This document shows, piece by piece, positions 2,543-35,863 of a stretch of DNA of 41,371 bases. The stretch's first letter is position 1. Each line of letters begins with the position of its first letter. Position numbers and translations under genes: made by a program. The notes beneath the pieces are model-generated. The model had not been told where the DNA came from, did not search any database, and was given only the letters and a program-made list of their open reading frames with translations. Source of the DNA: a virus. The stretch spans positions 1-41,371 of IMG/VR virus record IMGVR_UViG_3300020183_000176; one strand, written 5' to 3'.

Positions 2543-3142
2543 ATGAATCTTGAAAAACTAAAGGGTCATGTACCTGATAAAGTGATTGAGCAGATTCCTG
2601 AGGTTATGCAGAAGTTTAGTGTAAATACACCACTGCGTCTATCTCACTTTCTAGCTCAGTGCGGCCATGAGTCTGGTGGTTTTAAGCTCACTCAAGAGAA
2701 TCTTAACTATTCAGCTAAGGGTCTTATGGGAATCTTTAAGAAGTATTTTCCTACAGAAGCTATAGCTAATGCTTATGCTAGACAACCACAGAAGATTGCT
2801 AACAAAGTATATGCTTCCCGTATGGGAAATGGTGCTGAAGCTTCTGGTGAAGGATTTAAGTTCCGCGGTCGTGGATATATCCAGCTCACCGGTAAGCAGA
2901 ATTATACTGCCTTTGACGCTTCTGTACCAGAAAGTATAGTAGATAACCCAGACTTAGTTGCTACTAAGTATCCATTAGCATCTGCTGCATGGTTCTGGAG
3001 TAAGAACGGACTTAATACAATTGCTGACCAAGGTTCTTCTAATGAAGTAGTAACTAAGATTACTAAGCGTGTAAACGGTGGTACGATTGGTCTTGCTGAT
3101 CGGATTAAACACTTTAAAGAGTATCACGCATTACTTGCATGA
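2543..3142 (+). CDS. GH19-family endolysin (chitinase/lysozyme-like)
   Basis: A 199-aa single-domain protein of glycoside hydrolase family 19. It shows the HES-GG motif (HESGGF) with the likely acid Glu43 and the later GEGFKFRGRGYIQLTG block carrying the second acid near Glu103. The C-terminal helical part contains WFWSKNGLN and the VNGG turn typical of the family. Phage GH19 enzymes cleave the glycan strands of peptidoglycan during lysis. No signal peptide is seen, so release probably depends on the upstream holin-like protein. Confidence 0.92.
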   Translation: MNLEKLKGHVPDKVIEQIPEVMQKFSVNTPLRLSHFLAQCGHESGGFKLTQENLNYSAKGLMGIFKKYFPTEAIANAYARQPQKIANKVYASRMGNGAEASGEGFKFRGRGYIQLTGKQNYTAFDASVPESIVDNPDLVATKYPLASAAWFWSKNGLNTIADQGSSNEVVTKITKRVNGGTIGLADRIKHFKEYHALLA

Positions 3143-3342: not shown

Positions 3343-3828
3343 ATGAACCTTAGAGGTTATTTTATTTTATTATTATCTGTACTGTTTGTAGGATCTTCCT
3401 ACTCACAGAATATTTATATTGATAGTGTAAGGAACAGTATACCTACTGGTCCACTTACTGCTAATAAGAATCTTAGTTTTGGTGTAAAGAACATCTTAGC
3501 TGAAGTACTTCAAGACAAAGGTCTTGATCTTCTTCCTAAAAAAGAAGAAGGAGAGCTTAGCTTAGTTACTGAGATATACTTCTTTGATATTGTACAAACC
3601 AATGGTGGTGTATCTGTATTTAAGAAGCAGGCTAACACAACTGTTATGGGCCTGAAAGGCATGCTGTATAAAAACGGCAAGCTCGTTAGTTCTAAAAAGA
3701 TAGAAGAATCATCCTCTGAAATAGTAATAGCCAACCTGGTTGTTCCTGAAGATGGTAAACCCAATCAACAGTCTGTTAGTAATGTAATTAAAAAAGCCTG
3801 TCAAGCTCTAATTGACAAACTCCTATGA
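3343..3828 (+). CDS. Exported CsgG-related protein (divergent, short)
   Basis: A 161-aa protein with an N-terminal signal peptide (hydrophobic YFILLLSVLFVGSSYS, likely cleaved before QNIY). The mature part can be aligned by eye to the CsgG-like protein encoded at 6904-7665. LSFGVKNILAEVLQDKGLDL parallels LGVTNIIVEYLEETGRF, EIYFFDI parallels EVYDFSV, and the C-terminal helices also match. It is therefore probably a shortened relative of the same fold. The gene overlaps the next start by 4 bases (ATGA). Its exact role in envelope transport is unknown. Confidence 0.65.
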   Translation: MNLRGYFILLLSVLFVGSSYSQNIYIDSVRNSIPTGPLTANKNLSFGVKNILAEVLQDKGLDLLPKKEEGELSLVTEIYFFDIVQTNGGVSVFKKQANTTVMGLKGMLYKNGKLVSSKKIEESSSEIVIANLVVPEDGKPNQQSVSNVIKKACQALIDKLL

Positions 3829-5726: not shown

Positions 5727-5730
5727 ATAT

Positions 5731-6036
5731 ATGTCAGAAGAATTAGAACAATCAAATGACGGTACTTGGTCTGGTCTTAAGAAGACAGTCGTAGGTACTA
5801 TTAGTACAGTAATCCTGGGTGCAGGCACTTGGGTAGGTACAACTCTTTTTGGAGGTAAAGAAGAAGCTGCTCCAGCTCCTGCTGCACAGCCAAGTATTAT
5901 TATTAATAACACTCAAGCTCAGCAACAAGCTGCCGGTGGAACTAAAGTAATTGAGCGTGTGATTGAAAAGCCAGCTGCAAAACCTGCAGAACCAGCTCCT
6001 AAGAAAAAAGAGTTTTCAGAAGAACCAAAGTGGTAA
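5731..6036 (+). CDS. Small membrane protein with Ala/Pro-rich tail
   Basis: A 101-aa protein. Residues about 17-41 form a Gly/Thr-rich hydrophobic segment (TVVGTISTVILGAGTWVGTT) resembling a glycine-zipper membrane helix. The rest is low-complexity Ala, Pro, Gln and Lys (EEAAPAPAAQP ... KPAAKPAEPAPKKKE). It starts 4 bases after the T9SS cargo gene and is followed by another membrane protein, so the operon context is clear. Function unknown; a tether or pore-associated role is possible. Confidence 0.65.
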   Translation: MSEELEQSNDGTWSGLKKTVVGTISTVILGAGTWVGTTLFGGKEEAAPAPAAQPSIIINNTQAQQQAAGGTKVIERVIEKPAAKPAEPAPKKKEFSEEPKW

Positions 6037-6052
6037 TTATTAAATAGTATAT

Positions 6053-6652
6053 ATGAGCAACCAAGTATCTGAAAAAGGATTTCAAGGACTTCTTAACGCT
6101 ATGATGAGAAGACGCTGGTTTATTACAGCGTTAGTATTAGGATCTTTTATCCTTATTGTTGGTGGCATTTTTGTAGCCATAGAAATTGGCAGCCCAATGG
6201 CAGGTGAGTGGAAAGAACTTCTACTTCTTATGCTTGGTGCCTTTATCGGTAGTTATGGTAAGATTATAGACTACTGGTTTTCTGATACAGACAAGGATAA
6301 AATGCTTGTACAGAAGATGGATGAAGAAGATGGTGTCTCTTTATCTAATACGGCTAATATCAAAGACACGCCACGTGAACAGAAGTCTTTAGTAGATCCG
6401 ACCTTTGCTGCATTTGCCGCAAAAGCTTCGGAGGAAAAAGAAGAATTACCTGCAGAATCTAAACCTGTAGATAAAAAAGGTACAGAGATAGACGAAGACG
6501 GTGATGGTGTTATGGACGGTCTAGACTTTGACGGTGATGGTAAGATAGACGAGTACTTTGCACATAGACAGTGTGAGCATGTATGGGGTGATGTAGACGG
6601 AGACGGTAATCTTGAGTGCCTTAAGTGTGGCAAGATTAAAGATCCGGAATAA
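6053..6652 (+). CDS. Two-TM protein with calcium-loop and Cys-pair tail
   Basis: A 199-aa protein with two transmembrane segments (about residues 22-45, WFITALVLGSFILIVGGIFV, and 54-70, ELLLLMLGAFIGSYG), like a small holin. A long soluble tail follows. The tail holds EF-hand-type Asp loops (DEDGDGVMDGLDFDGDGKID, and later DVDGDGNLE) and a Cys/His cluster (CEH ... CLKC) that could bind a metal. It lies between the Ala/Pro-rich membrane protein and the CsgG-like gene. The combination suggests a metal-sensing or metal-stabilised envelope protein; this is inference. Confidence 0.7.
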   Translation: MSNQVSEKGFQGLLNAMMRRRWFITALVLGSFILIVGGIFVAIEIGSPMAGEWKELLLLMLGAFIGSYGKIIDYWFSDTDKDKMLVQKMDEEDGVSLSNTANIKDTPREQKSLVDPTFAAFAAKASEEKEELPAESKPVDKKGTEIDEDGDGVMDGLDFDGDGKIDEYFAHRQCEHVWGDVDGDGNLECLKCGKIKDPE

Positions 6653-6675
6653 TATTTCTTACTTAATCCTGTAAT

Positions 6676-6897
6676 ATGGAAGCTGATGAACAAAAGAAAG
6701 AGACTAAAGATTTTACGTTCCTCCAGGGATATAAGCTTGATGCTGGCAATGTTTTTCTTGCCACTTGGATACGATCTTTTGTTCAAGACTCTCTTAAACA
6801 TTACGGGGAGCTTTTGGGTTACCGATATCATATTTTACTGTATATCAGGATTATTTTGGCTGCTTTACTTTTTATTATCCAAGACTTTAAAGTCTAA
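6676..6897 (+). CDS. Alternative/overprinted small membrane ORF (frame 1)
   Basis: A 73-aa frame from ATG 6676, preceded by an A/T-rich leader typical of starts in this genome. The N-terminal half is charged (MEADEQKKETKDF) and the C-terminal half ends in one hydrophobic helix (HILLYIRIILAALLFII). Its codon choice resembles the neighbours. It overlaps almost completely, in another frame, the 73-aa ORF at 6686-6907. Only one may be real, or both may be translated as overlapping genes. I cannot decide from the sequence alone. Confidence 0.4.
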   Translation: MEADEQKKETKDFTFLQGYKLDAGNVFLATWIRSFVQDSLKHYGELLGYRYHILLYIRIILAALLFIIQDFKV

Positions 6898-6907
6898 TAC
6901 ACCATGA
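6686..6907 (+). CDS. Small two-TM membrane protein (frame 2), ATGA-coupled to next gene
   Basis: A 73-aa frame from ATG 6686 with a basic N-terminus (MNKRKRLKILRSSRD) and two hydrophobic segments (ISLMLAMFFLPLGYDLLF; then VTDIIFYCISGLFWLLYFLL). Its TGA stop overlaps the ATG of the CsgG-like gene (ATGA at 6904-6907), the usual sign of translational coupling. The coherent two-TM topology and this coupling favour it over the competing frame starting at 6676, whose leader looks better. Function unknown. Confidence 0.5.
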   Translation: MNKRKRLKILRSSRDISLMLAMFFLPLGYDLLFKTLLNITGSFWVTDIIFYCISGLFWLLYFLLSKTLKSNTP

Positions 6908-7665
6908 AAGTTGATAAAGAATCATTTAAGATATTATTGATGATAGGTATTTGGTTACTACTAATGTTTATTATTAGCAGTATAATCACTACTGTTTCAG
7001 CACAGACTGTAGGATCTACAAAGACAGAACAGTACCAGGCTGGTTTTGAGAAGAAGGTAAATATTGATTCCTTGATGGACTATAACGGTCCAACTATTCC
7101 TATACAGTTATTAAGTTTAGGAATTAATGAGGATGTATATGCTATGTACCCAGAGCTTAAAGATAAACGTGTTGGGCTGGGTGTTACTAATATCATTGTT
7201 GAGTATCTAGAAGAGACTGGTAGGTTTACTTTTACAGAAGATAAAACTGAAATTAAAAACCGTATGGTTAAACAGTTTCAGGCTAGTCAATCTGGAATAA
7301 CGGAGAATAAACTAGATGGACGTGGTAAGATTATGTTAGCACGTTACTTTGTGTACATAGAAGTATATGACTTCTCTGTATCTGTAGATGAGGAAATAAA
7401 GGTTGCTAATGGTGTTAAAGAAACCATGGTGACACGTCTTGGTCTACAGGCAAAGTTTGTGGACGCTGAAACAGGAGAATACTTCACTGCCTCAGGTCTT
7501 GGAGAAGCTAAAACTGTCAGAGAGCTCACTCTTCTTAATGATGATAACCTCTCTGAGATTAAGTTTAACCAATCAACAATTGGTATCACTACGAAGAAAG
7601 CTCTGGAAACAGCAGCTTCTAGAGTAGTTCTGCGGATGATAAAGAAGCAGATCTTTAAGAACTAG
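6904..7665 (+). CDS. CsgG-like outer-membrane secretion protein
   Basis: A 253-aa protein with an N-terminal export signal (ILLMIGIWLLLMFIISSIIT, cleavage likely after VSAQ). The mature region resembles the CsgG/HfaB family: PIQLLSLGI, then VGLGVTNIIVEYLEETGRFTF, then RYFVYIEVYDF and a C-terminal helix. CsgG forms the oligomeric outer-membrane pore for curli export. The usual lipoprotein cysteine is not seen, so it may not be lipidated. It sits between membrane proteins and an outer-membrane barrel gene, with a 1-base overlap downstream. The family call is from pattern reading and is moderate. Confidence 0.65.
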   Translation: MKVDKESFKILLMIGIWLLLMFIISSIITTVSAQTVGSTKTEQYQAGFEKKVNIDSLMDYNGPTIPIQLLSLGINEDVYAMYPELKDKRVGLGVTNIIVEYLEETGRFTFTEDKTEIKNRMVKQFQASQSGITENKLDGRGKIMLARYFVYIEVYDFSVSVDEEIKVANGVKETMVTRLGLQAKFVDAETGEYFTASGLGEAKTVRELTLLNDDNLSEIKFNQSTIGITTKKALETAASRVVLRMIKKQIFKN

Positions 7666-9083
7666 TGTGGCACCGTGCCGTTTATATCATAACATTGCTT
7701 GCCCTTTCTCTGACTGCAAGAAGTCAGGTATTAACGTATCCGTTCACCGATCCTTGTACGAAGGTGGTAACTACGTTTACAATACCTGTAACGGGTAATA
7801 CTGTCATTTACTTTCTAGGCAAATCGGCCTCGTTTACTGCAGCAGATGTCAGTAGCGGGGCTTTTGCTTCTTGGATAAACGCTACATATGATGACTATAG
7901 AAAGATTTCACCTTGTGGTCAGCAGTCTGGGCAGGTGACTCAGAATCAGATTACTAGTCAGATAATAGGTAACACAGTACAAAGTGTAGTGAGTTCTATA
8001 ATGAGTTCGGCACAGAGTCAGGCCACATCTTCTGTGGTGTCAAGTGCTACAGGGACTTCAGTGTCATCCGGGGGAGGAGGTGTGTCTGACGCTAGCTCTA
8101 AGGATAATAAAGACTCTAAATCTAATAACAATGGAAATACTTCTAATAGTTCTTCTAATACCTCTTCTGGCAGCTCTACTAGCCAGTCAGGAGGTTCGTC
8201 AGGCTCTTCAGGTTCTAGTCAAACTACTACTGGTTCTAGCAACACTGGCGGGAGTAATAATACTAGCTCATCTAAATCTGACAAAGGATCTACTCAAGAA
8301 GGGTCTCAAGAAGTTGCGGCTTCCACTACTATGAGTGCAGACGCATCTGCAGACAAATCTGGAGGAGATAATAGTTCTTCTTCAGGAGGTGGTAAAAATG
8401 GAGGTAAATCAGGTGGTAAAGGTGGAGGGAGTAACCCTATACTAGTATCATCTGATTTTACTACAGCTCAGAATCTGGATAAGTCATTCACGCCCATCTT
8501 AAATCTATCTATGAGTCAGTCTTCACTGACAGGTAAGACAAGCTGGGGTATGACCGGTATGGTGTGGTTTAACTTTAAGCAGTTTGCTCTTAGTGGTAAG
8601 TATACAAGATTAAATGTAAGCAAGAGTGGTAAGCTGAAGTATATTTCAAACTTTGCTCTCACTGCAGTGTATAGTTACGGAAACATCTTAGGATTTATTG
8701 GATACAGCGGTATTCTAAATGCAGGTAAGTTTGGGGTGACAGGTTTTAATGTATCAGGTGCAGCAAGTGTAATAAGTGAAGATGACAATACATTCTTTTC
8801 TCCGTCTATTACAGCCTTTTATACTAAGCCTTTTTACTTAAATAAGCGTAAGAGGTTCACTATATCCCCTGAACTATATATTATTTCTACCCCTCTTATT
8901 TATTCTACCAAGGATAAAGTGACACAAAGTGACAGAACTTTTAGTTTCTTTGCAGGATCAGGTTTTGATTATCAGATAAGTAAGAAGTTTAAGTTTAACG
9001 TAAACTATAAACTTAATGCTAGTACAAACCGTGAATTTCCTATTCTTAGTTTCTTTTTAGTGGGGAGCAAGATTAACTTATGA
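7665..9083 (+). CDS. Outer-membrane beta-barrel protein with Ser/Gly/Asn-rich linker
   Basis: A 472-aa protein from a GTG start that shares its G with the preceding TAG stop. Residues 1-20 are a signal peptide (VYIITLLALSLTARS). A short N-terminal domain has two Cys, and residues ~108-255 are a long low-complexity Ser/Gly/Asn/Thr linker (SSGSSTSQSGGSSGSSGS and similar). The last ~210 residues alternate aromatic and polar strands, ending FPILSFFLVGSKINL, as in an outer-membrane barrel. It is probably inserted in the host outer membrane, with the linker exposed or spanning the periplasm. Function unknown; it overlaps the lectin gene by 4 bases. Confidence 0.75.
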   Translation: MWHRAVYIITLLALSLTARSQVLTYPFTDPCTKVVTTFTIPVTGNTVIYFLGKSASFTAADVSSGAFASWINATYDDYRKISPCGQQSGQVTQNQITSQIIGNTVQSVVSSIMSSAQSQATSSVVSSATGTSVSSGGGGVSDASSKDNKDSKSNNNGNTSNSSSNTSSGSSTSQSGGSSGSSGSSQTTTGSSNTGGSNNTSSSKSDKGSTQEGSQEVAASTTMSADASADKSGGDNSSSSGGGKNGGKSGGKGGGSNPILVSSDFTTAQNLDKSFTPILNLSMSQSSLTGKTSWGMTGMVWFNFKQFALSGKYTRLNVSKSGKLKYISNFALTAVYSYGNILGFIGYSGILNAGKFGVTGFNVSGAASVISEDDNTFFSPSITAFYTKPFYLNKRKRFTISPELYIISTPLIYSTKDKVTQSDRTFSFFAGSGFDYQISKKFKFNVNYKLNASTNREFPILSFFLVGSKINL

Positions 9084-10519
9084 GAAAACTACTTGTTATA
9101 TTATTTTCTATAATTACTGTGCTATCTAAAGCTCAGTCAGTCACTGCTCCTCTTGGTAGAACATACCAAGTAAATGTAAGCGGACAAGATGCAAGTGGTT
9201 TTGTTATCAATGGTTTTACTTCACAGTTATTGTTAACTTCTATAGGGTTGGTTAATCCACCCGCAGGAGTTAGTTTTAGTATTACAACTACTACAGGTTT
9301 ATCTTTTGCTTCAGGATATAACTCTTGGAGCAATCAAACCCGTTTAAGTTTTATTGGTACGCAAGCTAATGTAAATAATGCCTTAGCTTCTTTAAAGATT
9401 AATACTGGTTCCACTACAGGAAACGTACAGATATCAGTATCAACTACTGAGAACCCAGCTGGTTATTACTATAATGCTGTTAACGGTCACTTTTACAGAC
9501 CTATATCTAGTACTACTTTTTATTCTACAGCTAAATCTTTATCTAGTCAACAGACATTTAAAGGTCAGACTGGTTATCTTGTTACAATAACTTCTCAGTC
9601 TGAACAAGACTTTATTGTTGCTAATGTACCACAGAACAACATATGGTTTGCTTTGTCTGATGTTGTACAAGAAGGTTATTGGCGTATAGATGCGGGACCT
9701 GAAAACGGTACATTAATTAAGACACAAAACGGTCAGACTGCTGGTAATATAGCCGGTCAGTATAATAACTGGTGCGGAGGTGAACCTAATAACGCAGGAG
9801 GTGAACACTACGCTGTTACCAAATGGGGCGGTGGAGGTTGTTGGAATGACTTACCTAATAATGTTAATTGTGCATACATAGTTGAATTTGGTACTTGGTC
9901 TAATCCAGCTGATGCTACATTCACAGGATTTTATACAGCTAATACTACAAATACAGTGGCGGTAACTAATACTCTTACTGGGACAGTTACTATTCCTGCA
10001 GGATTATCATCTAGACCACTGTTAACTTTATATAGAGTGGTTAATGGATCTGACATCTTAGTTGATTACAAGAATGTGAACACTGATGGAACATACACTT
10101 TTACTCTACCTAATCAGAACTCTACATATAAACTAGTTCCATCTTTATCTGTACAGGGTATTACACTTGCTGACTTTACAGTAACTTGGGCAGAAGGTTT
10201 AAACATTAACACTCCTAATAATACTAGTCCTGGTTTATCTTTAACTGGGACTAAACAATGGAAAGCAGCGGATGTAAATAAAAACGGTATATTAGACCTT
10301 GGTGATGCCTTCTTAATAATAGCACACACCACAGGATTAAGATTAATTTCGGAAGTCTTATGGTTTAATCCATCAGACTATGACAGTATAACAAGATCAA
10401 GCTTCTCTACTATTAATCCAGTGAGCTCGTTTACAATAAACGTAGCTACTAGTAATGTTACACAGAACATAAAGTATTGTGTACTTGGGGATGTAAATCT
10501 ATCTCACAGTTCAAACTAA
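9080..10519 (+). CDS. Secreted C-type lectin-domain protein with dockerin-like loops
   Basis: A 479-aa protein with a signal peptide (residues 1-19, LLVILFSIITVLSKAQ) and an N-terminal beta domain. A C-type lectin domain lies at about 130-270, with WFALSD, a WRIDAG turn, NNWCGGEPNN, CWNDL and the final CAYIVEF. A second beta domain and a dockerin-like loop follow (DVNKNGILDLGD, ~399-410). The last residues, YCVLGDVNLSHSSN, match the middle of the T9SS cargo protein (YMLLGDVDRSHSS). The homologous second half with the sorting domain is missing, so this looks like a shortened relative. Probably a glycan-binding surface or virion protein. Confidence 0.85.
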   Translation: MRKLLVILFSIITVLSKAQSVTAPLGRTYQVNVSGQDASGFVINGFTSQLLLTSIGLVNPPAGVSFSITTTTGLSFASGYNSWSNQTRLSFIGTQANVNNALASLKINTGSTTGNVQISVSTTENPAGYYYNAVNGHFYRPISSTTFYSTAKSLSSQQTFKGQTGYLVTITSQSEQDFIVANVPQNNIWFALSDVVQEGYWRIDAGPENGTLIKTQNGQTAGNIAGQYNNWCGGEPNNAGGEHYAVTKWGGGGCWNDLPNNVNCAYIVEFGTWSNPADATFTGFYTANTTNTVAVTNTLTGTVTIPAGLSSRPLLTLYRVVNGSDILVDYKNVNTDGTYTFTLPNQNSTYKLVPSLSVQGITLADFTVTWAEGLNINTPNNTSPGLSLTGTKQWKAADVNKNGILDLGDAFLIIAHTTGLRLISEVLWFNPSDYDSITRSSFSTINPVSSFTINVATSNVTQNIKYCVLGDVNLSHSSN

Positions 10520-11198: not shown

Positions 11199-12710
11199 TT
11201 ATTTTATAGTTAGACCAGTCTGATCTACTTTATGAATAGTTTCTCCATCAAAGACAACTACTTGTCCTCTTAATGAGTATTGCTTAATAACATCACTTTG
11301 GAAGTGATTAAATTTTGCTCCCTGTAGTCCAATAAAAAATGCTTTATCACAAAAGTTATTGCAGCGATCTTCTGCATCTGTTATAACTATAGCGTTGCGA
11401 TCATTCTTTACTATACTAGATACAGCAGCATCAATACTAGTACCACCTCCACAATCTATCATAGAGATAGATACTAAATCGTTACGATACTTTTTAACTC
11501 TTGTATCAAACAAGTAGACATCATTTAGCATATCCATTTCTTTAAGCTTAGCTATCATTGATTTAGCAAAGTCTATACGGCTAATATGATTACCGTCAGC
11601 GTTACGAGAACCACAAGTGGTTGACATAGATCCAGATATATCTACGTAGACATCTATTTTACCAACTGCTTTAGTATCTTTAATCTGAATATCTTCAGCA
11701 AAGATTTTACGCAACTGAGGATGTAATAACTCATAGTCTTCTAGACCAGATACATCTTGAGCATTGAATAGATCTTCGTATGTTGTAATCTTACGAGAAG
11801 AAAAGTAACTAGTAGATTTATCCAAAAGTTTTTTCAACTTTTCTTTAAGAGCACCCATAGAAAGCTTGATATTAGCAAGTCTACCTGCTACTTGACGCAT
11901 ATATTCAGGACTTATTTTGCCAGCTTGATTACCTGAACCAGGTTTATTAGCTTGATCAAAGAGTTGTTCCTGAATATCCTGAGTCATGCTTTCATCCATC
12001 ATTTTGCAAGTATCTTGAGCATCTTTCATAGCACGATCTAATGCATTCTTACTAGCTTGATTATTTAGCATTTTATCCAATGCATCATCAGCATCTTTAC
12101 TGTCAAATTCAGACTCACCATTAAGACTTTTCTTTAAATTCTTATAAGCATTTGGGTCAATATATTCTAGCTGGGTCATTTGCATGAGATAGTACATCAC
12201 CATATTACGAGTAAATATGGCAGACTTTAGACTTCCTCCTTCAGTCATAATTTTACCAACAGGATTATTTGCTTTCTCTAAAAACTTATAGCGAGTACTG
12301 TTTTTATCTGTACGTTCTACAAAATCAAGTTTTTCCATCTTGTTGTAATACATCTTAAAGATATCATACTTAAGATGTTCAGGAAACTTGTCAAAGTTTT
12401 GACGTACTTTAGTAAAGAATTTACTGAAATCAGGCTTTTTATCTTCAGGAATCTTACCAAATGCACTGGTCTTACTAAAGTATTCATACTCTTGCTTGAT
12501 TTTACTTTGATCCATTAGACCAGCTTCTATAATAGTGTGAATTTTATCTTCATCTATGTAATGAACATAGGGTTTAATAAGATCGGCTTTCTTATAAAAG
12601 TTTAGTTTACCAAACAGACCACCTTCGTTTTTATAATGAGACTGGATCTCACCTTTCTTTACTTTTTCAAGAATCGTATATACGTTCTTGTATTGTTTAG
12701 TACTTGACAT
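11199..12710 (-). CDS. von Willebrand A-domain protein, partner of MoxR ATPase
   Basis: A 503-aa protein. Residues ~1-340 are helical and charged. The C-terminal ~150 residues form a vWA domain with a complete-looking MIDAS: DISGSMS at 357-363, the Thr in GGGTSID, and the Asp in ITDAED. Together with the upstream MoxR-type AAA+ gene this matches the RavA-ViaA, CbbQ-CbbO and NorQ-NorD arrangement. In those pairs the ATPase remodels a target and the vWA protein supplies specificity. Substrate here unknown. A 12-bp hairpin separates the two genes. Confidence 0.88.
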   Translation of the reverse strand: MSSTKQYKNVYTILEKVKKGEIQSHYKNEGGLFGKLNFYKKADLIKPYVHYIDEDKIHTIIEAGLMDQSKIKQEYEYFSKTSAFGKIPEDKKPDFSKFFTKVRQNFDKFPEHLKYDIFKMYYNKMEKLDFVERTDKNSTRYKFLEKANNPVGKIMTEGGSLKSAIFTRNMVMYYLMQMTQLEYIDPNAYKNLKKSLNGESEFDSKDADDALDKMLNNQASKNALDRAMKDAQDTCKMMDESMTQDIQEQLFDQANKPGSGNQAGKISPEYMRQVAGRLANIKLSMGALKEKLKKLLDKSTSYFSSRKITTYEDLFNAQDVSGLEDYELLHPQLRKIFAEDIQIKDTKAVGKIDVYVDISGSMSTTCGSRNADGNHISRIDFAKSMIAKLKEMDMLNDVYLFDTRVKKYRNDLVSISMIDCGGGTSIDAAVSSIVKNDRNAIVITDAEDRCNNFCDKAFFIGLQGAKFNHFQSDVIKQYSLRGQVVVFDGETIHKVDQTGLTIK

Positions 12711-12724
12711 ATTGTCAAAATTTA

Positions 12725-12756
12725 AAGTAAAGCTGGCTACTATACCAGCTTTACTT
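12725..12756 (-). terminator. Hairpin between moxR-like and vWA genes (attenuator or weak terminator)
   Basis: A perfect 12-bp inverted repeat (AAGTAAAGCTGG / CCAGCTTTACTT) with an 8-base loop. It lies between the ATPase stop and the vWA start. Only a mixed A/T tract follows on the minus strand, so partial termination or RNA protection is more likely than full termination. Confidence 0.6.
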
Positions 12757-12770
12757 ATTTAAAATTTATT

Positions 12771-14099
12771 TTATGCTTGTTCTGCCATCATAGCATCAAA
12801 CTCCTCGGCAGACTGGTAGTTTTTACGAGCAGGGTGAATGGCTAAGATGTACTGCATAGAAAGCTCTATTTCTTCTACCTGTGTTTCATCCATGATATTA
12901 CGGGAAACATAAGTATTGATCAGACTTTCTACGTCAGCTATTGCAAGCTCTAGTTGTTCGTTTGTAGTATAGCTTTGTAGCATCTCTACTTTGCTCATAA
13001 CAGCCTTAACTTCTGGACTCATCAGTTTGTTCTGTAGTTCAGAACCTGCTGATTGTCCAATCATAATCTGGGCTGTCTTTACTAATGCTTTATCTACTGA
13101 GATATCCCAGATATAGCTAACTGCTTTAGTAAGTTTTGGTACAAAAGTCAAAGTACGATCTGAGCTATGTTGGTAGCCAACTTCTAGATACTTTTCCAGT
13201 TTGTTTACTGGAATTTCTACCTGATCAATTTCTGCAGTATTAGGAACACCAATACTGAACTTCTCACGGTAGTTACGAGCACCTTTGTTATAGTACTTAA
13301 CTAGCTCACCTGCAGATACGCGGTTTACTGTCATCTTTAACATAAAACGATCCCAGAATGGAGAGTTTTGCTCATCTTTAGGAATCTCATTACAAGTTGC
13401 AATAAACAGTTTCCACTTACATGGAATCTTATTTTTACCATTAAATAAGAACTTCTCATTCATAACACCCAACATGGCGTTACGTATAGCTGAGCTAGCT
13501 TTGTCTACCTCATTGATGATAACAATCTCTGCATCAGCAATGGGAGCGTTAAGTTCATACTTGTTCTCAGTAAAAAGTTTACTCAGGTCAGGCATACCTT
13601 TAATTTCTGAGGCCTTAGTACCTTCATCTGTTTCCAGGATGTAAATCTTATTAGCAAAGTCTTGGTTGGTCATTTTACCATCTTTGTTTAACCATGCCTT
13701 TGCGTATTCTATCACGGTTTTGGTCTTTGCAACGCCAGGCTCACCGATTAATAGACAAGGCAGGCCGGTAGATTCTGCAAGGGCCATCATTTTAAATACT
13801 TCTTCTTTGTTAATCAAAGAAGTTTCAATAGTACGTACCTCTTGGGTAGTTTTTTTTGTGATTGTCTTTACTTTAGACATGTTTGCTGTGTTTGGATTTT
13901 TAGGACTTGGATTAAATTTGGTTGTTGTCTGAGAAGTATTTACTTGATGAGCTTTCACCCAGCGTTGTACACCTGCAGTAGTTGCTCTTACTTCCCAAAG
14001 GTTACCATCATTGCCGATCATTTGATAACCGACAGCATACAGTGTTGCACTCTGTGTAGGACTTGGCCTTACAGAAGTGTTAGTTCTCATTATACTCAT
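12771..14099 (-). CDS. MoxR-type AAA+ ATPase
   Basis: From the ATG at 14099 the product has 442 aa. A ~100-residue N-terminal part contains a short YQMIGNDGNLWEVR module. The AAA+ core follows with Walker A GEPGVAKT (119-126), Walker B as VIINEVDKA, sensor-1 ATCNEIP and an Arg-containing FWDRF. Walker B has Asn where Asp is usual (NE instead of DE), which could alter hydrolysis. An open frame extends to 14246, but that start would overlap the upstream gene by 143 bases. The ATG at 14099 lies a few bases after that gene's stop and is preferred. Pairs with the downstream vWA gene. Confidence 0.88.
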   Translation of the reverse strand: MSIMRTNTSVRPSPTQSATLYAVGYQMIGNDGNLWEVRATTAGVQRWVKAHQVNTSQTTTKFNPSPKNPNTANMSKVKTITKKTTQEVRTIETSLINKEEVFKMMALAESTGLPCLLIGEPGVAKTKTVIEYAKAWLNKDGKMTNQDFANKIYILETDEGTKASEIKGMPDLSKLFTENKYELNAPIADAEIVIINEVDKASSAIRNAMLGVMNEKFLFNGKNKIPCKWKLFIATCNEIPKDEQNSPFWDRFMLKMTVNRVSAGELVKYYNKGARNYREKFSIGVPNTAEIDQVEIPVNKLEKYLEVGYQHSSDRTLTFVPKLTKAVSYIWDISVDKALVKTAQIMIGQSAGSELQNKLMSPEVKAVMSKVEMLQSYTTNEQLELAIADVESLINTYVSRNIMDETQVEEIELSMQYILAIHPARKNYQSAEEFDAMMAEQA

Positions 14100-14103
14100 A
14101 GGA

Positions 14104-14460
14104 TTAGAGGTTGACGAAGGCTGTAAGGTCGTCTGAGGTTTCAGTAACTTCCATTGATGGGTTGATGTCTGCCACTCGTACCACTCTTTGTTCCACAATG
14201 TTATTGCTGGTAGGTCTGGGTTCTCCGGTTTTAGTAGTGGTCTCATACTTTGTATCGTCTATGATATTAAATACAGTAATATTAGTCTCAGCGTCTTTTA
14301 GAGCTGGATGTTTACGGATCATAGCAATCTGCTGATCTTTTGCATTGTACTTGTCTTGGATGTTACCGTAACCGATGTCATCACGTTTTAACCAGGTAAG
14401 ACCGTTGTTAAGGTCTTCTAAGATCTGTGATACATACAGATCCACTTTGTTTACTGCCAT
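14104..14460 (-). CDS. Hypothetical protein upstream of MoxR-like ATPase
   Basis: A 118-aa protein starting MAVNKVDLYVSQILEDLNNG, with an ordered helical N-terminus and a polar, Thr-rich C-terminus (SSDDLTAFVNL region). It has no membrane segment. It is directly upstream of the ATPase start with a gap of only a few bases, so it belongs to the same operon. Family not recognised. Confidence 0.7.
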   Translation of the reverse strand: MAVNKVDLYVSQILEDLNNGLTWLKRDDIGYGNIQDKYNAKDQQIAMIRKHPALKDAETNITVFNIIDDTKYETTTKTGEPRPTSNNIVEQRVVRVADINPSMEVTETSDDLTAFVNL

Positions 14461-22172: not shown

Positions 22173-22204
22173 TTAACGATTGCTTGCTTGCCTCTAAAAG
22201 GCAG

Positions 22205-22675
22205 TGGAGGTGGCGGGAGTTGAACCCGCGTCCAATAATGAAGTTAATACGTACTGCTCGTTACATGCTTAGTACTGATATGTCACAAATCTTTGAAGAA
22301 TTGTGACAGTCTGCACCGTAAGGGATAACTGTCTATTTACAACTTCAGTTTTAGTTGGAAAGATGGATCAAGATGTCTTGAAGTCTTTCAGTTTTGAATA
22401 TCAGCACGCCATTAGTATCCGGTAGTTTATAGGCTACCATCATAGGACTCTGTCTATTCAGCTACTATTTTCTGTTGCCAAGGATAGATCCTCCGTAGGG
22501 TTAGGCAGCTACTGCTACTTCACCGAAGATAGAAGCCAAGATAGCTTCACCTTCTGCTACACGCTCAGACTTAGTCGTTGCGTTTGTTTTCTGATTCCGA
22601 GATTAAAGTGGTTGGAGAACCGTCCCACTGCATGTGTACATACCACTCACACTACTGTCAAAACCAGGCACCCCC
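22205..22675 (-). ncRNA. ssrA: Transfer-messenger RNA (tmRNA)
   Basis: The 5' end reads GGGGGTGCCTGGTTTTGACA, the tmRNA start with its D-like segment. The 3' end has the canonical T-arm (CGGGTTCAACTCCCG) and CACCTCC, which pairs with GGGGGTG over 7 bp with one G-U. The discriminator is A and CCA is not encoded. The tag reading frame closes at TAA 22501-22503 after codons for GEVAVAA; Ala-Ala ends are usual degradation tags and Bacteroidota tags commonly begin GE. In frame upstream there is also GEAILASIF, so the resume codon is not certain. At 471 bases it is longer than most bacterial tmRNAs. An 8-bp helix is visible at 22281-22308. It should rescue stalled ribosomes in the infected cell. 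Confidence 0.93.
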
Positions 22676-24918: not shown

Positions 24919-25098
24919 TTAAAAATTCACGGCTTTACGGCCGTGTAGCATTGAAACCTTAAATTCATTCATCCAGTCTTGTTGAGACGGTTGATTTTTA
25001 GGGTAAGTGGATTTTCCAATTCTTAAGACTAAGATTGGCTTTTGTTTTTTACAAGAGGCAGGTTTAATCAAACCGAGCCAAAGAAGTATACTTTTCAT
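24919..25098 (-). CDS. Small hypothetical protein (59 aa)
   Basis: Frame from ATG 25098 to TAA 24919-24921, MKSILLWLGLIKPASCKKQK, then PILVLRIGKSTYPKNQPS and a C-terminus with HGRKAVNF. A hydrophobic start could be an anchor or signal. It is 11 bases after the DUF4313-like gene. Function unknown. Confidence 0.55.
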   Translation of the reverse strand: MKSILLWLGLIKPASCKKQKPILVLRIGKSTYPKNQPSQQDWMNEFKVSMLHGRKAVNF

Positions 25099-25109
25099 AA
25101 GAGTATAAA

Positions 25110-25577
25110 TTAAGACTGTATGAGTTCCATAATTTCAATTGCCTTCTCATAGCTTTCAGCCCAGACTTCAGTCTCTTTTATAATCCACATTTTTCTTCCA
25201 GTCGTTATATCAATCTGAGCAGGAGGAGGATTTAATTGATATCCAGTTCCCCACTCACTTTCTGGTCTAAGAATGCATACCGGTATCCATACAAAACCTG
25301 ATTGAACACCTCGGTTTGTTGGATATACTATGTTATTCTCAGTTAAAAAGTTGAGCATACCTTCATTTTCAGAGTAGTCTTTTATTAGAATTTCATTTTC
25401 ATCTAATAGTACATCTGGAAGATTTACGCTTGCTATAGCGTAAGGAAAGCCATAATCTTCAGAGTTCTCATCTGCATATAGCAATTCAAGAGAAGTTCTT
25501 CCGTTATTATACTTTCTTTTGCGTATTGACACTGGGCAGGTATCACTGCCTTCAAGTGTCACAAAAAATTTCTGCAT
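25110..25577 (-). CDS. DUF4313-like protein
   Basis: A 155-aa protein that resembles the DUF4313 family found on Bacteroidota mobile elements: an N-terminal GRTSLELLYAD strand, YAIASVNLPD, a central Asn-Glu acidic part and RGVQSGFVWIPVCIL. The family function is unknown. The C-terminus has a helix, SYEKAIEIMELIQ. It overlaps the upstream PcfJ-like gene by 26 bases. Confidence 0.6.
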   Translation of the reverse strand: MQKFFVTLEGSDTCPVSIRKRKYNNGRTSLELLYADENSEDYGFPYAIASVNLPDVLLDENEILIKDYSENEGMLNFLTENNIVYPTNRGVQSGFVWIPVCILRPESEWGTGYQLNPPPAQIDITTGRKMWIIKETEVWAESYEKAIEIMELIQS

Positions 25578-26637
25578 GTGTAATGTTTTTTACAGTTTTA
25601 AGATTATCATTTACATCATTTAACCATTTTTTTACTTCTTGTCTAATATCAGATTCAGGTTGTTGATTATACTTACCCATTAATTGATTAAACTGTAGAC
25701 CTGTACTTTTATCATAAAATAAACCAAGAGTAAGACCATACATAGAGCCATCATTAACATGAAAAACTACAAAGTTGTTATACTTTATAGCATTCCAATA
25801 GTTTGTATAAACACAGTGTTTCATAACTTTACCTTCTCTGAATACATCATATTGATTATCAAGAAGTTTATACCTGTTGTCATTATACTTTTTAAACTTT
25901 TCCAACCAGTCAAGAGGTTCTTTGGACATACTATCAGATTCTAACTCCATTAGTTCTTCTGTCCATTTTTTATGCTCTTCTTCCATACGTTTTACAGACC
26001 ATTTAAAATCAATTTTACGATCAAGCATAATAGCTTGCTGTATTAAATCATTGGTTGTACCATGTTCAGGAGTATTTTGAATAAAATCTAAATAGTGATC
26101 TAAGTTTTTTGCAACAGATATAGCTTGTAGAAACTGAGTTTTATTTAGATTATTTTCTACAGCGTGTTTAAGAAGATTAGCAGAAGCATTTTTAACTCTG
26201 TATAATTTAAGAATAGTAGTAAATAAATCATGTGGGTTAGTAATCTTTCCTGCAATAATTTTACCCATAACAGAGTTAGTAATAAACTGTAGATACTTTT
26301 CATTAACCCATTCTTTACCTAACTTACAAAGAACATCATGCAAATATGGCACACTAGAAAGCTTACTACCAAACCAAACATTCATTTTACCTTTTGGATC
26401 TACAGTAAAACCATGATGGCTATTTTTCTTCATAAAGTATTCTTTACCCCGACTTATTTTGTACACTGTATGTGAATAGTGTACTGTTCCGTCTTCACGA
26501 ATTAGTATGTTTCCACATGGAAAGTAGTTACCTTGAAACTGTCGGTGATAAAGTATATTTTTTGCTACGGACTGTGGCATAGCTAAGAAGTCTTTTACTT
26601 CTTGATTTATTTCTTGTATAGCAATCGTTTTTTTCAT
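25552..26637 (-). CDS. PcfJ-like protein
   Basis: A 361-aa protein whose C-terminal third contains YDVFREGKVMKHCVYTNYW, the Lys-His-Cys-Val core of PcfJ-type proteins. Those occur on conjugative elements and phages and have no firm biochemical function. The N-terminal part is helical with several Trp and Tyr. Preceded by a strong terminator, so it starts its own transcript, and it overlaps the next gene. Confidence 0.7.
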   Translation of the reverse strand: MKKTIAIQEINQEVKDFLAMPQSVAKNILYHRQFQGNYFPCGNILIREDGTVHYSHTVYKISRGKEYFMKKNSHHGFTVDPKGKMNVWFGSKLSSVPYLHDVLCKLGKEWVNEKYLQFITNSVMGKIIAGKITNPHDLFTTILKLYRVKNASANLLKHAVENNLNKTQFLQAISVAKNLDHYLDFIQNTPEHGTTNDLIQQAIMLDRKIDFKWSVKRMEEEHKKWTEELMELESDSMSKEPLDWLEKFKKYNDNRYKLLDNQYDVFREGKVMKHCVYTNYWNAIKYNNFVVFHVNDGSMYGLTLGLFYDKSTGLQFNQLMGKYNQQPESDIRQEVKKWLNDVNDNLKTVKNITHAEIFCDT

Positions 26638-26663
26638 ATAGATTTATTATTATTTAATAAAAA

Positions 26664-26687
26664 ACCCGGTAGCCGAAGCCACCGGGT
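26664..26687 (-). terminator. Strong intrinsic terminator
   Basis: ACCCGGT/ACCGGGT extended by GGC/GCT around a TTCG loop, then TTTTTT on the minus strand. It ends the small lipoprotein gene at 26712-26867. Confidence 0.9.
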
Positions 26688-26711
26688 AATAACCATTAAA
26701 CTAACACTATA

Positions 26712-26867
26712 TTACTGAGGTACTCTTGTAATCAGCTTGCTTCTTCCTTTACATCCGTAGCCTTGTGTGCTACAGCTACATAAACCAGCAAGAAGTCCTA
26801 GAAATACAATAGTGATAAGAAGATATTTTGCAGCAGTTTCATTTTGCTGACGTTGATTTTCAGTCAT
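26712..26867 (-). CDS. Small membrane/lipoprotein-like protein (51 aa)
   Basis: ATG 26867 to TAA 26712-26714. The protein has a polar N-terminus (MTENQRQQNETAAK), a hydrophobic helix (YLLITIVFLGLLAGL) and then CSCSTQGYGCKG, which resembles a lipobox followed by a Cys-rich tail. It could be an outer- or inner-membrane lipoprotein. It follows the exported metalloprotease gene with a ten-base gap, so the two may be cotranscribed. Confidence 0.6.
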   Translation of the reverse strand: MTENQRQQNETAAKYLLITIVFLGLLAGLCSCSTQGYGCKGRSKLITRVPQ

Positions 26868-26876
26868 AATTTTTAA

Positions 26877-27452
26877 TTATAAACGTTTATTAATAAGTTT
26901 AGATTTACATATATCGCAGAAGTAAGTACTTTCTTGATCTATTTGTTTGATTGTACCTTTTGCAGAACTCATTAAACATTTAGAGTTATTAGTACAATGA
27001 TCAAGACCAAAATTATGACCTACCTCATGTATTGAAATTTTATTAATACGCTCAAGAACTAGATTTTTAGAAATATGTTTTAATCTATAAACAGATACAA
27101 CGCATATGTTACTGTTGCGTTTTGCAAGCCCAAATATTCCCCACTCGGGTTGACTGGGTGTTTTAGTATAACAAATATCTTTTTCAGTAACAAGAACCGT
27201 ATGATTAGATGTTTGATACTTATCAAGCATTTTTTGAGCATCATATCTATTAGTTCTTATTTTAGCGTGTATGTCTTTAGTTCCACTTATAGGCGTATTA
27301 ATTATACATTTAATATTATAAAAAGATTCTAATGAAGACTTGATAGTATTTATGTAAGTCTTATTTACATTATCTATAGGTTGTATATATATAACTGACT
27401 TAGAATTTACATAAAAAAGCTGAATGATAACGAAAAACAGTAAAGTTTTCAT
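26877..27452 (-). CDS. Exported archaemetzincin metalloprotease
   Basis: A 191-aa protein with a short N-terminal signal (MKTLLFFVIIQLFYVNSKS). The zinc site matches archaemetzincin: HEVGHNFG (142-149), LDH, Cys153, Cys159-x-Met161, then 17 residues to Cys179-x2-Cys182. This agrees with the known HExxHxxGx3Cx4CxMx17CxxC pattern except that the first Cys-Cys gap is 5. The catalytic Glu143 and the Cys for the second zinc are present. It probably cleaves peptides in the periplasm or outside the cell. Phage archaemetzincins are rare. Confidence 0.85.
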   Translation of the reverse strand: MKTLLFFVIIQLFYVNSKSVIYIQPIDNVNKTYINTIKSSLESFYNIKCIINTPISGTKDIHAKIRTNRYDAQKMLDKYQTSNHTVLVTEKDICYTKTPSQPEWGIFGLAKRNSNICVVSVYRLKHISKNLVLERINKISIHEVGHNFGLDHCTNNSKCLMSSAKGTIKQIDQESTYFCDICKSKLINKRL

Positions 27453-27477
27453 TTAGTACTATTTAATTATTAAATAT

Positions 27478-27548
27478 CACTGGAGGCATGTTTGACATAG
27501 AGATATAGTTTTAAATTAATAATATGTCATTAAGACATACCCCCAGTG
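27478..27548 (-). promoter_or_regulatory. Long hairpin upstream of archaemetzincin gene
   Basis: Arms at 27478-27491 and 27535-27548 pair over 14 bases with two G-U (minus strand CACTGGGGGTATGT / ACATGCCTCCAGTG), enclosing a smaller ATGTC/GACAT hairpin. It lies between gene 27572-27781 and the protease start. It could be a terminator, a 5'-UTR regulator or a small RNA; no T-run was found, so a UTR element is favoured. Confidence 0.5.
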
Positions 27549-27571
27549 AGAATTTTAAGTAAGTAAAGTAG

Positions 27572-27781
27572 TTAGCCCCTAGATAATTTTTCTTCTAGAT
27601 CTATACATACAACTAAAGATGGAATCCAACCAAGAGCTAACATAAAACAGCATATGGCATTACTAGTGGCTGCTTCTCGGAAAGTTCCTGACTCCATACA
27701 TAAAAATGCAAGTGTAGATAAGCATAACCAGGTAATTAATAATGTACCTAGAAAGCCAAGCATAATAATTGTTCCTTTCAT
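27572..27781 (-). CDS. Small membrane protein (69 aa)
   Basis: Start set at ATG 27781, which overlaps the stop of the upstream gene (ATGA). The product MKGTIIMLGFLGTLLITWLC has further hydrophobic stretches (AICCFMLALGWIPSLVVCI), so it probably has two membrane helices. Function unknown. Confidence 0.65.
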   Translation of the reverse strand: MKGTIIMLGFLGTLLITWLCLSTLAFLCMESGTFREAATSNAICCFMLALGWIPSLVVCIDLEEKLSRG

Positions 27782-27978
27782 AAAACGTTCCTTTTGCATG
27801 AAGAATTTGATTTGTAAGGAAATGCTCTTCGGTAGTTACTATTAATAGTTTTTTTGAAATCATACCAGAGTTGTTTTAACTCAGAAGAATCAAAGGTCCA
27901 AATGAAAACTAAAATGAACCATAAACTAAATGGAATTAGAGCTACAGATAGTAGCAAGATTTTTAGAAGATACTTCAT
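27778..27978 (-). CDS. Small membrane-anchored basic protein (66 aa)
   Basis: Starts MKYLLKILLLSVALIPFSLW with a continuing hydrophobic stretch, then a polar basic tail (YDFKKTINSNYRRAFPYKSN). One membrane helix likely. Translation is coupled to the next gene by ATGA. Function unknown. Confidence 0.65.
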   Translation of the reverse strand: MKYLLKILLLSVALIPFSLWFILVFIWTFDSSELKQLWYDFKKTINSNYRRAFPYKSNSSCKRNVL

Positions 27979-27984
27979 AAGTTT

Positions 27985-28206
27985 TTAAATTTTGTTAAGA
28001 ATGTGGTTTAAGAGGATGGATCTATATACTGACAACGGTATATAAGCGTGGGTTTTACCTAGGATGACAGCTTGTTTAGGTATTAAAAAATCTAGTTTAT
28101 CTGTTTTAATCCTATACACTTGGGGTGTAGAAGAACTTTCAAGAACAGAGCTAAACTTAAATCTTATACGAGCGGTGTCTGGGTAAGAAAAGAATAACTT
28201 AGTCAT
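27985..28206 (-). CDS. Hypothetical protein (73 aa)
   Basis: Soluble protein starting MTKLFFSYPDTARIRFKFSS, with strands (QVYRIKTDKLDFLI) and a helical C-terminus (YRSILLNHILNKI). It lies downstream of the large structured RNA region, with only ~24 bases between the shared 27-base element and its ATG. Function unknown. Confidence 0.6.
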   Translation of the reverse strand: MTKLFFSYPDTARIRFKFSSVLESSSTPQVYRIKTDKLDFLIPKQAVILGKTHAYIPLSVYRSILLNHILNKI

Positions 28207-28214
28207 ATAGATAT

Positions 28215-29030
28215 AAAGGTTTTTGATGACTTGGAAAGTTAGAATGGTGCATTAAAGTTTCTGAAAGGCTGAGTGTTGACCTACAGATGCTACCGTTTTC
28301 ATAGGGTTACCCCTACTTATACACACAACAGATTACTCCATTGTAGATAGCAGTACCAGTGTTTTACCTCACTCCTGAGGGATCTTTCTCCAGATTACAT
28401 AGACTTTGATTTCTACCAAGTGGACTGGATGGTCCTAAGCTACATCCCTGCAGCTACTTAGATATACTCTCTCTATCTCACAGCTTTCCTTGCGGTACTG
28501 GCTGTGCTGTCATATTACAGACAGATAAGGTACTTTGACCCAGAGAACTGAATGACTTTTGCTTATTTAATTTTTAATTAAATAACAATAGCATAATCCA
28601 AGACGTGCAATCAGAATACAGCTCACTCCCTTTTGAGAAGTGCGTACTGTAACGCCTCAGTGTAGGTTACCAGCCTACGGTATAATCAAGACCCTGTTAC
28701 CAGGCCTCGGTTATACTAAATAACGCAGTAAGTCTTTTGGTAAAGACCTTCCACATATATCCTACAGGTTTTGTCCTATTGTGGTTTCCCACTCAACAGT
28801 GTATGCTGACACTGTAGCCACTCAGGGGTTTCCCCACTGCAGCTGTTACCCGTTTGCTTACTCGGCCGGTATTACTACCGTAGACATACGCTTGTTAACG
28901 CACATCTTTTATACCTGTCACCAGGTTTATCCTAAGGACCATAAGCGGCCCTGCCAATTAGTAGCTGATCAAGTCAGCTTAACGTACGACACCGTGAGTA
29001 TTTAAACTCTGAAGGTTTGGCTTGTGTACT
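28215..29030 (-). ncRNA. Large ornate structured RNA (class undetermined)
   Basis: About 815 bases with no convincing ORF on the minus strand. At least eight hairpins are capped by GNRA tetraloops. They include ACCTG-GTGA-CAGGT (28913-28926), CGGTA-GTAA-TACCG (28867-28880), GGGGAAACCCC (28825-28835), GTGG-GAAA-CCAC (28781-28792) and CCTG-GTAA-CAGG (28693-28704). CC-GCAA-GG sits inside CACAGC/GCTGTG (28479-28506); AGCTGCA-GGGA-TGTAGCT (28438-28455) and TAGGG-GTAA-CCCTA (28302-28315) complete the set. A 10-bp A/T stem lies at 28563-28585 and a 7-bp stem at 28796-28815. A terminator precedes it. The style matches phage-borne GOLLD or ROOL RNAs, but I cannot assign a family. Ends are approximate. 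Confidence 0.75.
28230..28256 (-). repeat. Copy 1 of a 27-base intergenic element
   Basis: On the minus strand TTTAATGCACCATTCTAACT and seven more bases. It is nearly identical to 29903-29929 (3 to 4 differences in 27). It lies just before the ATG of gene 27985-28206. A regulatory role is plausible. Confidence 0.65.
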
Positions 29031-29035
29031 TAAAA

Positions 29036-34872: not shown

Positions 34873-35489
34873 TGATTTTAAATCATAACATAGATAATCT
34901 CAAATGTCTTGTAAGGCAATCGTACTTTACAAAAGATCCCAGTGATCATAATATATTTCATTCTGCTTATTTATTTGGGATACAATCAATCTCTGGAAAG
35001 ATACTTACTTTTCACTTAATGACAGATTATGGAATGCTAAGATCAAGAGTACCTATTAGTGAAATATATTTACATAAACCAACCTTAGATGTACCTTTTC
35101 ACTATAAACAATTATGGGACTGTTTTAGTGAGAACGTATCAGTTATAACTTATGACTATCTGTACGAGAAAAAATGCCAGGTAATTTTAAGAGACAGCTC
35201 CAAAGTATGGGCTACCTATTTATTTACAGTAGACTGGTACAATAACTCATACTCAGATGAACCAAGTGATTATAAGTGCGGGCATATACTTGTAGCAGAT
35301 GATGGCTATTTATTGTGCCAACCTAACAATAGAATCTTTTGGAAAGACTCTAACTGGATAACAAAATCTTTTCCAATTAGCCTTAAAGAAATAAAGGTTG
35401 ATTATGAACTGCCATCTGTAGAAACAGTTTCTGATAGATGGGTAAGTGAAGATGGAAATTCTTATTATTATGATATGAATAAAGAATAA
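34872..35489 (+). CDS. Hypothetical protein (205 aa)
   Basis: Beta-rich soluble protein: MILNHNIDNLKCLVRQSYFT, DWYNNSYSDEPSDYKCGHIL, QPNNRIFWKDSNWITKSFPI. Joined by one-base overlaps to the nuclease and the SET-domain genes, so it is part of the same translation unit. Function unknown. Confidence 0.7.
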   Translation: MILNHNIDNLKCLVRQSYFTKDPSDHNIFHSAYLFGIQSISGKILTFHLMTDYGMLRSRVPISEIYLHKPTLDVPFHYKQLWDCFSENVSVITYDYLYEKKCQVILRDSSKVWATYLFTVDWYNNSYSDEPSDYKCGHILVADDGYLLCQPNNRIFWKDSNWITKSFPISLKEIKVDYELPSVETVSDRWVSEDGNSYYYDMNKE

Positions 35490-35863
35490 TGTTGCTTGTA
35501 GAAACTTATATTGCAGAGTCTCCTGGTATGGGACTTGGTTTGTTTACTAAAAACTTTATCAAGAAAGGAACTGTAATATGGGAGTTTATAGAAGGGTTTG
35601 ATATAAAAGTTAAAGAAGAAGAGTATAAACACTTAACTGATGTACAAAAAGCATTTGTTGATAAGTACTTTTGGAAAGAGTCTAAGTATTATTACTCATC
35701 TTGTGATGATTCAAGGTTTCAAAATCATAGTTATGATCCTAATTCTATTTCTTTGGATGATAGAATGATTGCTGCAAGAGACATTGATGCACATGAAGAA
35801 ATATTAGTAAACTACGAGAGTTTTGATGATGATTTTAATTTATACAAAGACACACTAAAATGA
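35489..35863 (+). CDS. SET-domain protein (lysine methyltransferase-like)
   Basis: A 124-aa minimal SET domain: the N-terminal GMGLGLFTKNFIKKGTVIWE, the FQNHSYDPNS core (Asn79-His80-Ser81) for S-adenosylmethionine, and the closing INARD-like ARDIDAHEEILVNYESFD with Tyr109. SET enzymes methylate lysines in proteins. In a phage the target could be host or viral proteins such as IHF-like proteins nearby; this is inference. Short overlap with the next gene. Confidence 0.85.
   Translation: MLLVETYIAESPGMGLGLFTKNFIKKGTVIWEFIEGFDIKVKEEEYKHLTDVQKAFVDKYFWKESKYYYSSCDDSRFQNHSYDPNSISLDDRMIAARDIDAHEEILVNYESFDDDFNLYKDTLK

Follow-up and report, generated by a model that had tools for sequence, protein, structure and literature searches.

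A predicted exported archaemetzincin with an intact zinc site in a clade of phage proteins, a candidate for proteolysis in the envelope of infected Bacteroidota cells

Archaemetzincins are a family whose structures have been solved and whose biological role is almost unknown, and an open reading frame carrying their zinc motif in a viral sequence raises the questions of whether the encoded protein is what its motif suggests and of what use it would be to a phage. The window analyzed here, 41,371 bases long, spans an entire IMG/VR virus record. An initial annotation had read the open reading frame at 26877-27452 as an exported archaemetzincin; the reading frame is real, and its position and zinc motif are as they had been read. 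The elements of the gene are the following:

26877..27452, minus strand: predicted exported archaemetzincin (M54) gene, 191 aa, ATG start, found by ORF call, profile and structure searches
27402..27452, minus strand: signal sequence, residues 1-17, likely Sec/SPI (VNS/KS), hydropathy peak 2.70
26994..27029, minus strand: catalytic zinc motif HEVGHNFGLDHC, residues 142-153; H142, E143, H146, G149 and H152 in 39/39 aligned proteins
26970..26978, minus strand: C159-x-M161, a Cys of the Cys4 site and the Met-turn; C159 in 39/39, M161 in 37/39
26907..26918, minus strand: C179-x-x-C182 of the Cys4 zinc site, in 39/39 aligned proteins

The motif of the window protein runs H142-E143-V-G-H146-N-F-G149-L-D-H152-C153, then C159-L-M161 and, after 17 residues, C179-D-I-C182. 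Set against the archaemetzincin consensus HEXXHXXGXXHC-X4-C-X-M-X17-CXXC (PMC3427221), the four Cys and the Met are present and the x17 spacing is exact, the sole deviation being a C-x5-C in place of x4. Among the 39 aligned phage proteins this spacing is x4 in 25, x5 in 12, x6 in one and x8 in one. A profile search and a structure prediction, both proposed in the initial annotation, agree with its assignment. The Pfam model Peptidase_M54 (PF07998) matched the window protein with 51.1 bits (E 2.1e-13; cut-off 24.4), two reprolysin-like metzincin models passed narrowly (27.3 vs 27 and 24 vs 22.4 bits), and the other models stayed below their cut-offs. The archaemetzincin subfamily NF033823 of NCBIfam aligned end to end over residues 21-186 but scored 115 bits where its cut-off asks for 145, so the protein is filed under M54 and outside that subfamily. 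Archaemetzincins were its only clear relatives in solved structures, as retrieved by a sequence search of the PDB (4axq, E 3.5e-15; 3zvs, E 6.1e-15).

AlphaFold, supplied with 39 phage sequences, gave a model with a mean pLDDT of 91.5 and low confidence in the first ~20 residues; the top Foldseek match of this model was AmzA of A. fulgidus (3zvs/4axq, MEROPS M54), which has the same fold (TMt 0.93-0.94, 28-29% identity; M. kandleri 2x7m, 0.82). The HEXXHXXGXXH motif, the Cys4 site and the Met-turn are common to AmzA and the window protein, whereas the phage protein has a signal sequence and the C-x5-C spacing, the matched archaeal chains beginning at the first strand. Searched against a collection of predicted viral structures, the protein had its best matches in proteins of the giant viruses Edafosvirus and Hokovirus, followed by metzincins of other kinds, one of them in Maribacter phage Colly_1. 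The M54 profile, the fold match and the conservation of the site in relatives rule out a chance motif, and the window protein is, as modeled, an archaemetzincin-fold protein with intact zinc-site residues.

Queried with the single protein, viral contigs yielded two at 86% identity, and an alignment query yielded 79 loci out of 532 pattern matches, the same 79 being returned by a repeat scan with a second alignment. The phage alignment comprised the window protein and 38 representatives of these loci (39 proteins), after exclusion of near-copies, of the truncated L078, and of L080, whose motif marks it as a different metzincin. A loss of zinc residues in relatives, which the initial annotation had named as the observation that would speak against it, was not seen: H142, E143, H146, G149, H152, C159, C179 and C182 are kept in 39/39, C153 in 38/39 and M161 in 37/39. 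The M54 gene is under purifying selection, with a dN/dS of 0.295 against the 86% identical copy of L003 and of 0.19 against that of L004, a comparison in which dS is saturated. Two different M54 genes were found on each of three of 30 carrier contigs (the records of L011, L014 and L016). That the gene is a lone contamination, or a cellular gene on a misassembled contig, was rejected because relatives at 86% and 50% identity occur in similar gene order elsewhere, and also because a terminase gene lies on the same contig.

Secreted archaemetzincins had been described in the initial annotation as hardly known from phages. This stands for the printed record and for named phages: no description of a phage archaemetzincin was found in the open-licence literature searched, the main text of a paper on huge gut phages (PMC12363816) has no mention of metallo, peptidase, zincin, M54 or archaemetz, and searches of 50,697 named phage records with three different family members as queries turned up no carrier. 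It fails for metagenomic viral contigs, with their 79 loci, so the scarcity in named phages looks like a matter of sampling. One further archaemetzincin was located on a Bernardetia replicon in a plasmid collection.

The large terminase of the window contig matches PHROG 6681 (E 8.2e-64) and has relatives in 130 records of named phages, including crAss-like, Bacteroides, Flavobacterium and Cellulophaga phages, the best 20 of the 130 at ~25% identity. The protein encoded at 3825-5726 (plus strand) contains a sorting domain for type IX secretion (NCBIfam 36.3 bits, cut-off 23; Pfam 28.9, cut-off 27), and such domains have already been published from a phage (PMC7468147). The terminase matches and the sorting domain, together with a paper on phages of freshwater Bacteroidetes that encode bS21 (PMC9723584), point to a Bacteroidota host. 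A run of exported-looking proteins occupies 3343-10519, the one at 9080-10519 having a C-type lectin domain. Other genes of the window encode a GH19 protein (2543-3142), a helicase, a UDG and a MoxR-type AAA protein. The M54 gene sits within a long minus-strand arm (10575-30695) along with the helicase, UDG and AAA genes, which are of replication type, and gene order suggests early expression of this arm; terminase and GH19 are encoded on the opposite, plus strand, and M54 does not adjoin GH19.

Searches of 30 carrier contigs found the window terminase in two, a T4-type portal in 15 and a T4-type prohead protease in 16, the contigs being possibly fragments in which absences weigh little. Judged by the terminase search, the carriers appear to be at least two unrelated lineages, yet they have the M54 clade in common, and its occurrence in phages that are not related argues that M54 is useful to the phage. 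Ribosomal protein S21 scored above its cut-off in 15/30 carriers, where its gene lies between portal and prohead protease on the opposite strand, as bS21 does near the T4-type portal and prohead protease in the phages of freshwater Bacteroidetes (PMC9723584). The window phage belongs to a lineage other than those bS21 phages, and the main text of that paper does not mention 'metallo' or 'peptidase'.

A tree was built from 39 phage and 41 cellular proteins, and 37 of the 39 phage members cluster in a single group (bootstrap 97, SH-aLRT 82); L026 and L075 are not part of it, L075 being on a long branch and without an export sequence. The cellular proteins came from a scan of genome contigs that gave at least 58 cellular loci, of which 14 were omitted by eye as near-duplicates or short matches and three (L107, L088, L116) were dropped as broken, partial or masked. 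The nearest cellular rows among the matches listed are mostly exported-looking Bacteroidota proteins with a few others (L082-L086, L112, L113), and branching among them is not resolved in the tree. Three of these Bacteroidota proteins (L083, L085, L086) resemble the phage protein in a signal sequence or lipobox and in (D/E)WGxFG and I-K-x-(V/I)-D stretches; they are among the nearest cellular rows of the matches listed, yet lie outside the phage group and differ in a context that looks chromosomal by eye, with housekeeping genes. L088, a partial copy from a Bacteroidetes bin with 57% identity over its best segment, lies outside the tree sample, and a closer cellular source may exist beyond the at least 58 loci of the genome contig scan.

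The window protein begins with MKTLLFFVIIQLFYVNS, followed by the first strand KSVIYIQP, which in the AlphaFold model starts at residue 20. The signal peptide reported in the initial annotation was recovered by eye and by a hydropathy script (peak 2.70), and the protein looks exported by its sequence, on a contig whose terminase marks it as phage. An N-terminal hydrophobic peak above 1.8 was detected by the same script in 38/39 phage proteins versus 10/42 cellular ones, some of the latter ten peaks being merely a first strand, and a lipobox was flagged in 7/39 phage proteins. The N-termini of 38/39 phage proteins thus look export- or anchor-like, and many of these relatives look like lipoproteins or appear to keep an uncleaved N-terminal helix. 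With such a membrane-tied appearance they would be expected to act on the very cell that is infected, so the earlier suggestion that competing cells are attacked finds no support, whereas action on envelope proteins, suggested alongside it, is plausible.

The reading that we prefer, with chances that fall slightly short of even, is an exported M54 protease that acts in cis, on the infected Bacteroidota cell's own envelope, and controls that envelope during infection. The zinc metallopeptidase would be exported via Sec by the infected cell and its signal peptide removed, leaving an enzyme that starts directly at the first beta strand with no pro-domain. It would then work in the periplasm or envelope of the same cell, where it would cleave a single host envelope protein or a few of them by means of a zinc-bound water with Glu143 as base, as follows from the family (PMC3427221). 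The likeliest gain would be control of the envelope, by a small margin more probably to block a second phage or to remove a receptor or an envelope sensor than to help in lysis. Protease activity, export, a Bacteroidota host, cis action and the phenotype are inferred; in favor of this reading are the retention of the catalytic Glu and the ligands (unlike in CarG of Myxococcus), the export- or anchor-like N-termini, purifying selection and the phage clade. That the family can be proteolytic is illustrated by AMZ-tk of Thermococcus, a zinc protease requiring its His and Glu residues, with the M54 motif as in the window protein (PMC4681839); AMZ-tk is archaeal, and the text of that paper contains neither 'signal peptide' nor 'secreted'. 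Against the preferred reading, two archaeal archaemetzincins were inactive in standard assays (PMC3427221).

A possible but somewhat less likely account makes the protein an accessory lysis factor, an exported protease that weakens wall or outer membrane so that virion release is more complete. Its closest precedent is found in Listeria prophages, where the secreted metzincin Mtz and the lipoprotein Tim raise sensitivity to phage lysis in dependence on Mtz activity (PMC8235301), and the elements flanking M54 bear on this comparison:

27477..27549, minus strand: hairpin upstream of M54, -28.6 kcal/mol, z -7.1 (L003 z -5.1, L005 z -6.6)
26712..26867, minus strand: small lipoprotein-like ORF, 51 aa, 9 nt downstream of M54, conserved (L003 96%, L005 44%)
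26664..26687, minus strand: terminator-like hairpin and T-run closing the M54/lipoprotein unit, the same in L003 and comparable in L005

The stem of the upstream hairpin is kept in L003 and, using other bases, in L005, and with the downstream ORF and the terminator-like hairpin it makes M54 and the 51-aa ORF look like one short transcription unit; a sigma-70 promoter scan gave 16 matches versus 20.4 in shuffles. The window, L003 and L005 resemble Mtz-Tim in a phage-borne, predicted exported metzincin directly followed by a lipoprotein gene, the likeness to Mtz being one of description. On the other hand, Listeria is Gram-positive, and Tim is TIMP-like and cleaved by Mtz (PMC8235301), whereas the window lipoprotein, with an unusual lipobox and ~20 aa after it, is too short for a TIMP fold. 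Neither is it tied to M54: no M54 was found near it in five of five other contigs, over stretches of up to 4 kb on each side (shorter in L142, with 52 bases before the ORF, and in L144, with about 2.4 kb). An obligate M54-lipoprotein pair was therefore dropped, and so was the assignment of the window pair to Mtz-Tim. The distance between M54 and the GH19 gene in the window also speaks against the lysis account.

A second neighbor bears on lysis in the T4-like carriers. A cluster of neighboring proteins, c10, occurs in 13/46 loci and adjoins M54 in 12 of them, with both genes pointing the same way in 10; in the remaining locus, L024, a peptidoglycan-binding stretch is probably the sole reason for membership in the cluster. 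An L,D-transpeptidase-like neighbor, in some members with a peptidoglycan-binding domain, would suit a lysis factor, but that identity is weakly supported: Pfam gave YkuD in 1/11 (E 0.51) and PG_binding_1 in 2/11, a PDB sequence search returned nothing relevant, and the c10 model had a pLDDT of 62, its best PDB fold matches being mostly L,D-transpeptidases over ~32-38 residues with E of 0.07 and up. All 11 aligned c10 proteins have an N-terminal part with (L/I)-x-E, followed by Q in 10. The prohead protease of T4 cleaves after (I/L)-x-E, and so short a motif is common. Its presence makes c10 a candidate head-packaged protein, and M54 adjoining genes for possibly head-packaged proteins may mean late expression in T4-like phages, which fits a lysis role too. 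At T4-like loci (for instance L007 8525-10108, L051 5127-7001 and L048 4250-5659), many unlike proteins have a similar leader (e.g. LTESDL) ending near (L/I)xE-Q, and this common leader is perhaps a capsid-targeting sequence. In L059, L061 and L072 a protein of ~1850 aa is encoded ~0.9 kb after M54; that of L059 (9310-14850, 1846 aa) combines SprB repeats with a type IX sorting domain, and those of L061 and L072 are similar.

Envelope control could also be extended to the T4-like carriers in a bolder form, which we regard as rather unlikely: unrelated Bacteroidota phages would share a phage-specific class of exported archaemetzincins that takes over the envelope, coupled in the T4-like members with a head-packaged, ejected peptidoglycan enzyme. 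The ejected enzyme would be the neighbor with a T4-type prohead protease site at the end of its leader, and it and the newly made protease would remodel wall and envelope in turn. If true, this would be the first biological role for the phage branch of a family with almost no known function.

The remaining explanations fare worse. There is little probability that M54 is a gene carried for host fitness (a moron), its product aiding the host in protein use: the nearest cellular relatives among the matches listed do include exported Bacteroidota forms, but the archaemetzincins described in PMC3427221 have occluded active sites and little general activity, unsuited to a digestive enzyme, and many relatives look membrane-tied. 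We likewise doubt that the protease removes a membrane or periplasmic defense protein, a role with which the export-like N-terminus, the phage clade and the spread between unrelated phages would agree, but to which no defense gene or known target points. A proteolytically inactive binding or regulatory protein is very improbable: the non-proteolytic archaemetzincin-like family NF033824 does match weakly (48.2 bits, cut-off 250), but Glu143, which is Gln in the inactive CarG (PMC3427221), and all three His ligands are kept in 39/39.

Control of the host envelope, our preferred reading, would point to envelope proteolysis as a phage strategy in Bacteroidota, where the control of lysis and of superinfection is little understood. 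The phage clade, apparently exported and under selection, offers a setting in which archaemetzincin function is testable by deletion and infection.

Several further observations concern the window phage and its closest relatives. At 11199-14246 (minus strand) a gene for the MoxR-type AAA ATPase is followed by one for a 503-aa protein that resembles a vWA partner by eye and has no Pfam match, and a SET-domain protein is encoded at 35489-35863 (plus strand; 49 bits, cut-off 22.4). Rfam places a tmRNA at 22202-22675 (minus strand; 84.1 bits, gathering 47), where ARAGORN made no call. The surroundings of M54 are mosaic: much of the block 25038-29031 is ~90% identical to L002/L003, other parts being at ~68-89%, which may reflect a recent history of its own for this region in the two phages. 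The block ends in ~800 bases without a convincing gene (28230-29031) that are 90.7% identical to L002/L003, above most coding parts. Finally, an ORF of L003 (15808-16509, minus strand) resembles a tyrosine recombinase by eye, a hint that the nearest relative carrying M54 could be a temperate phage.
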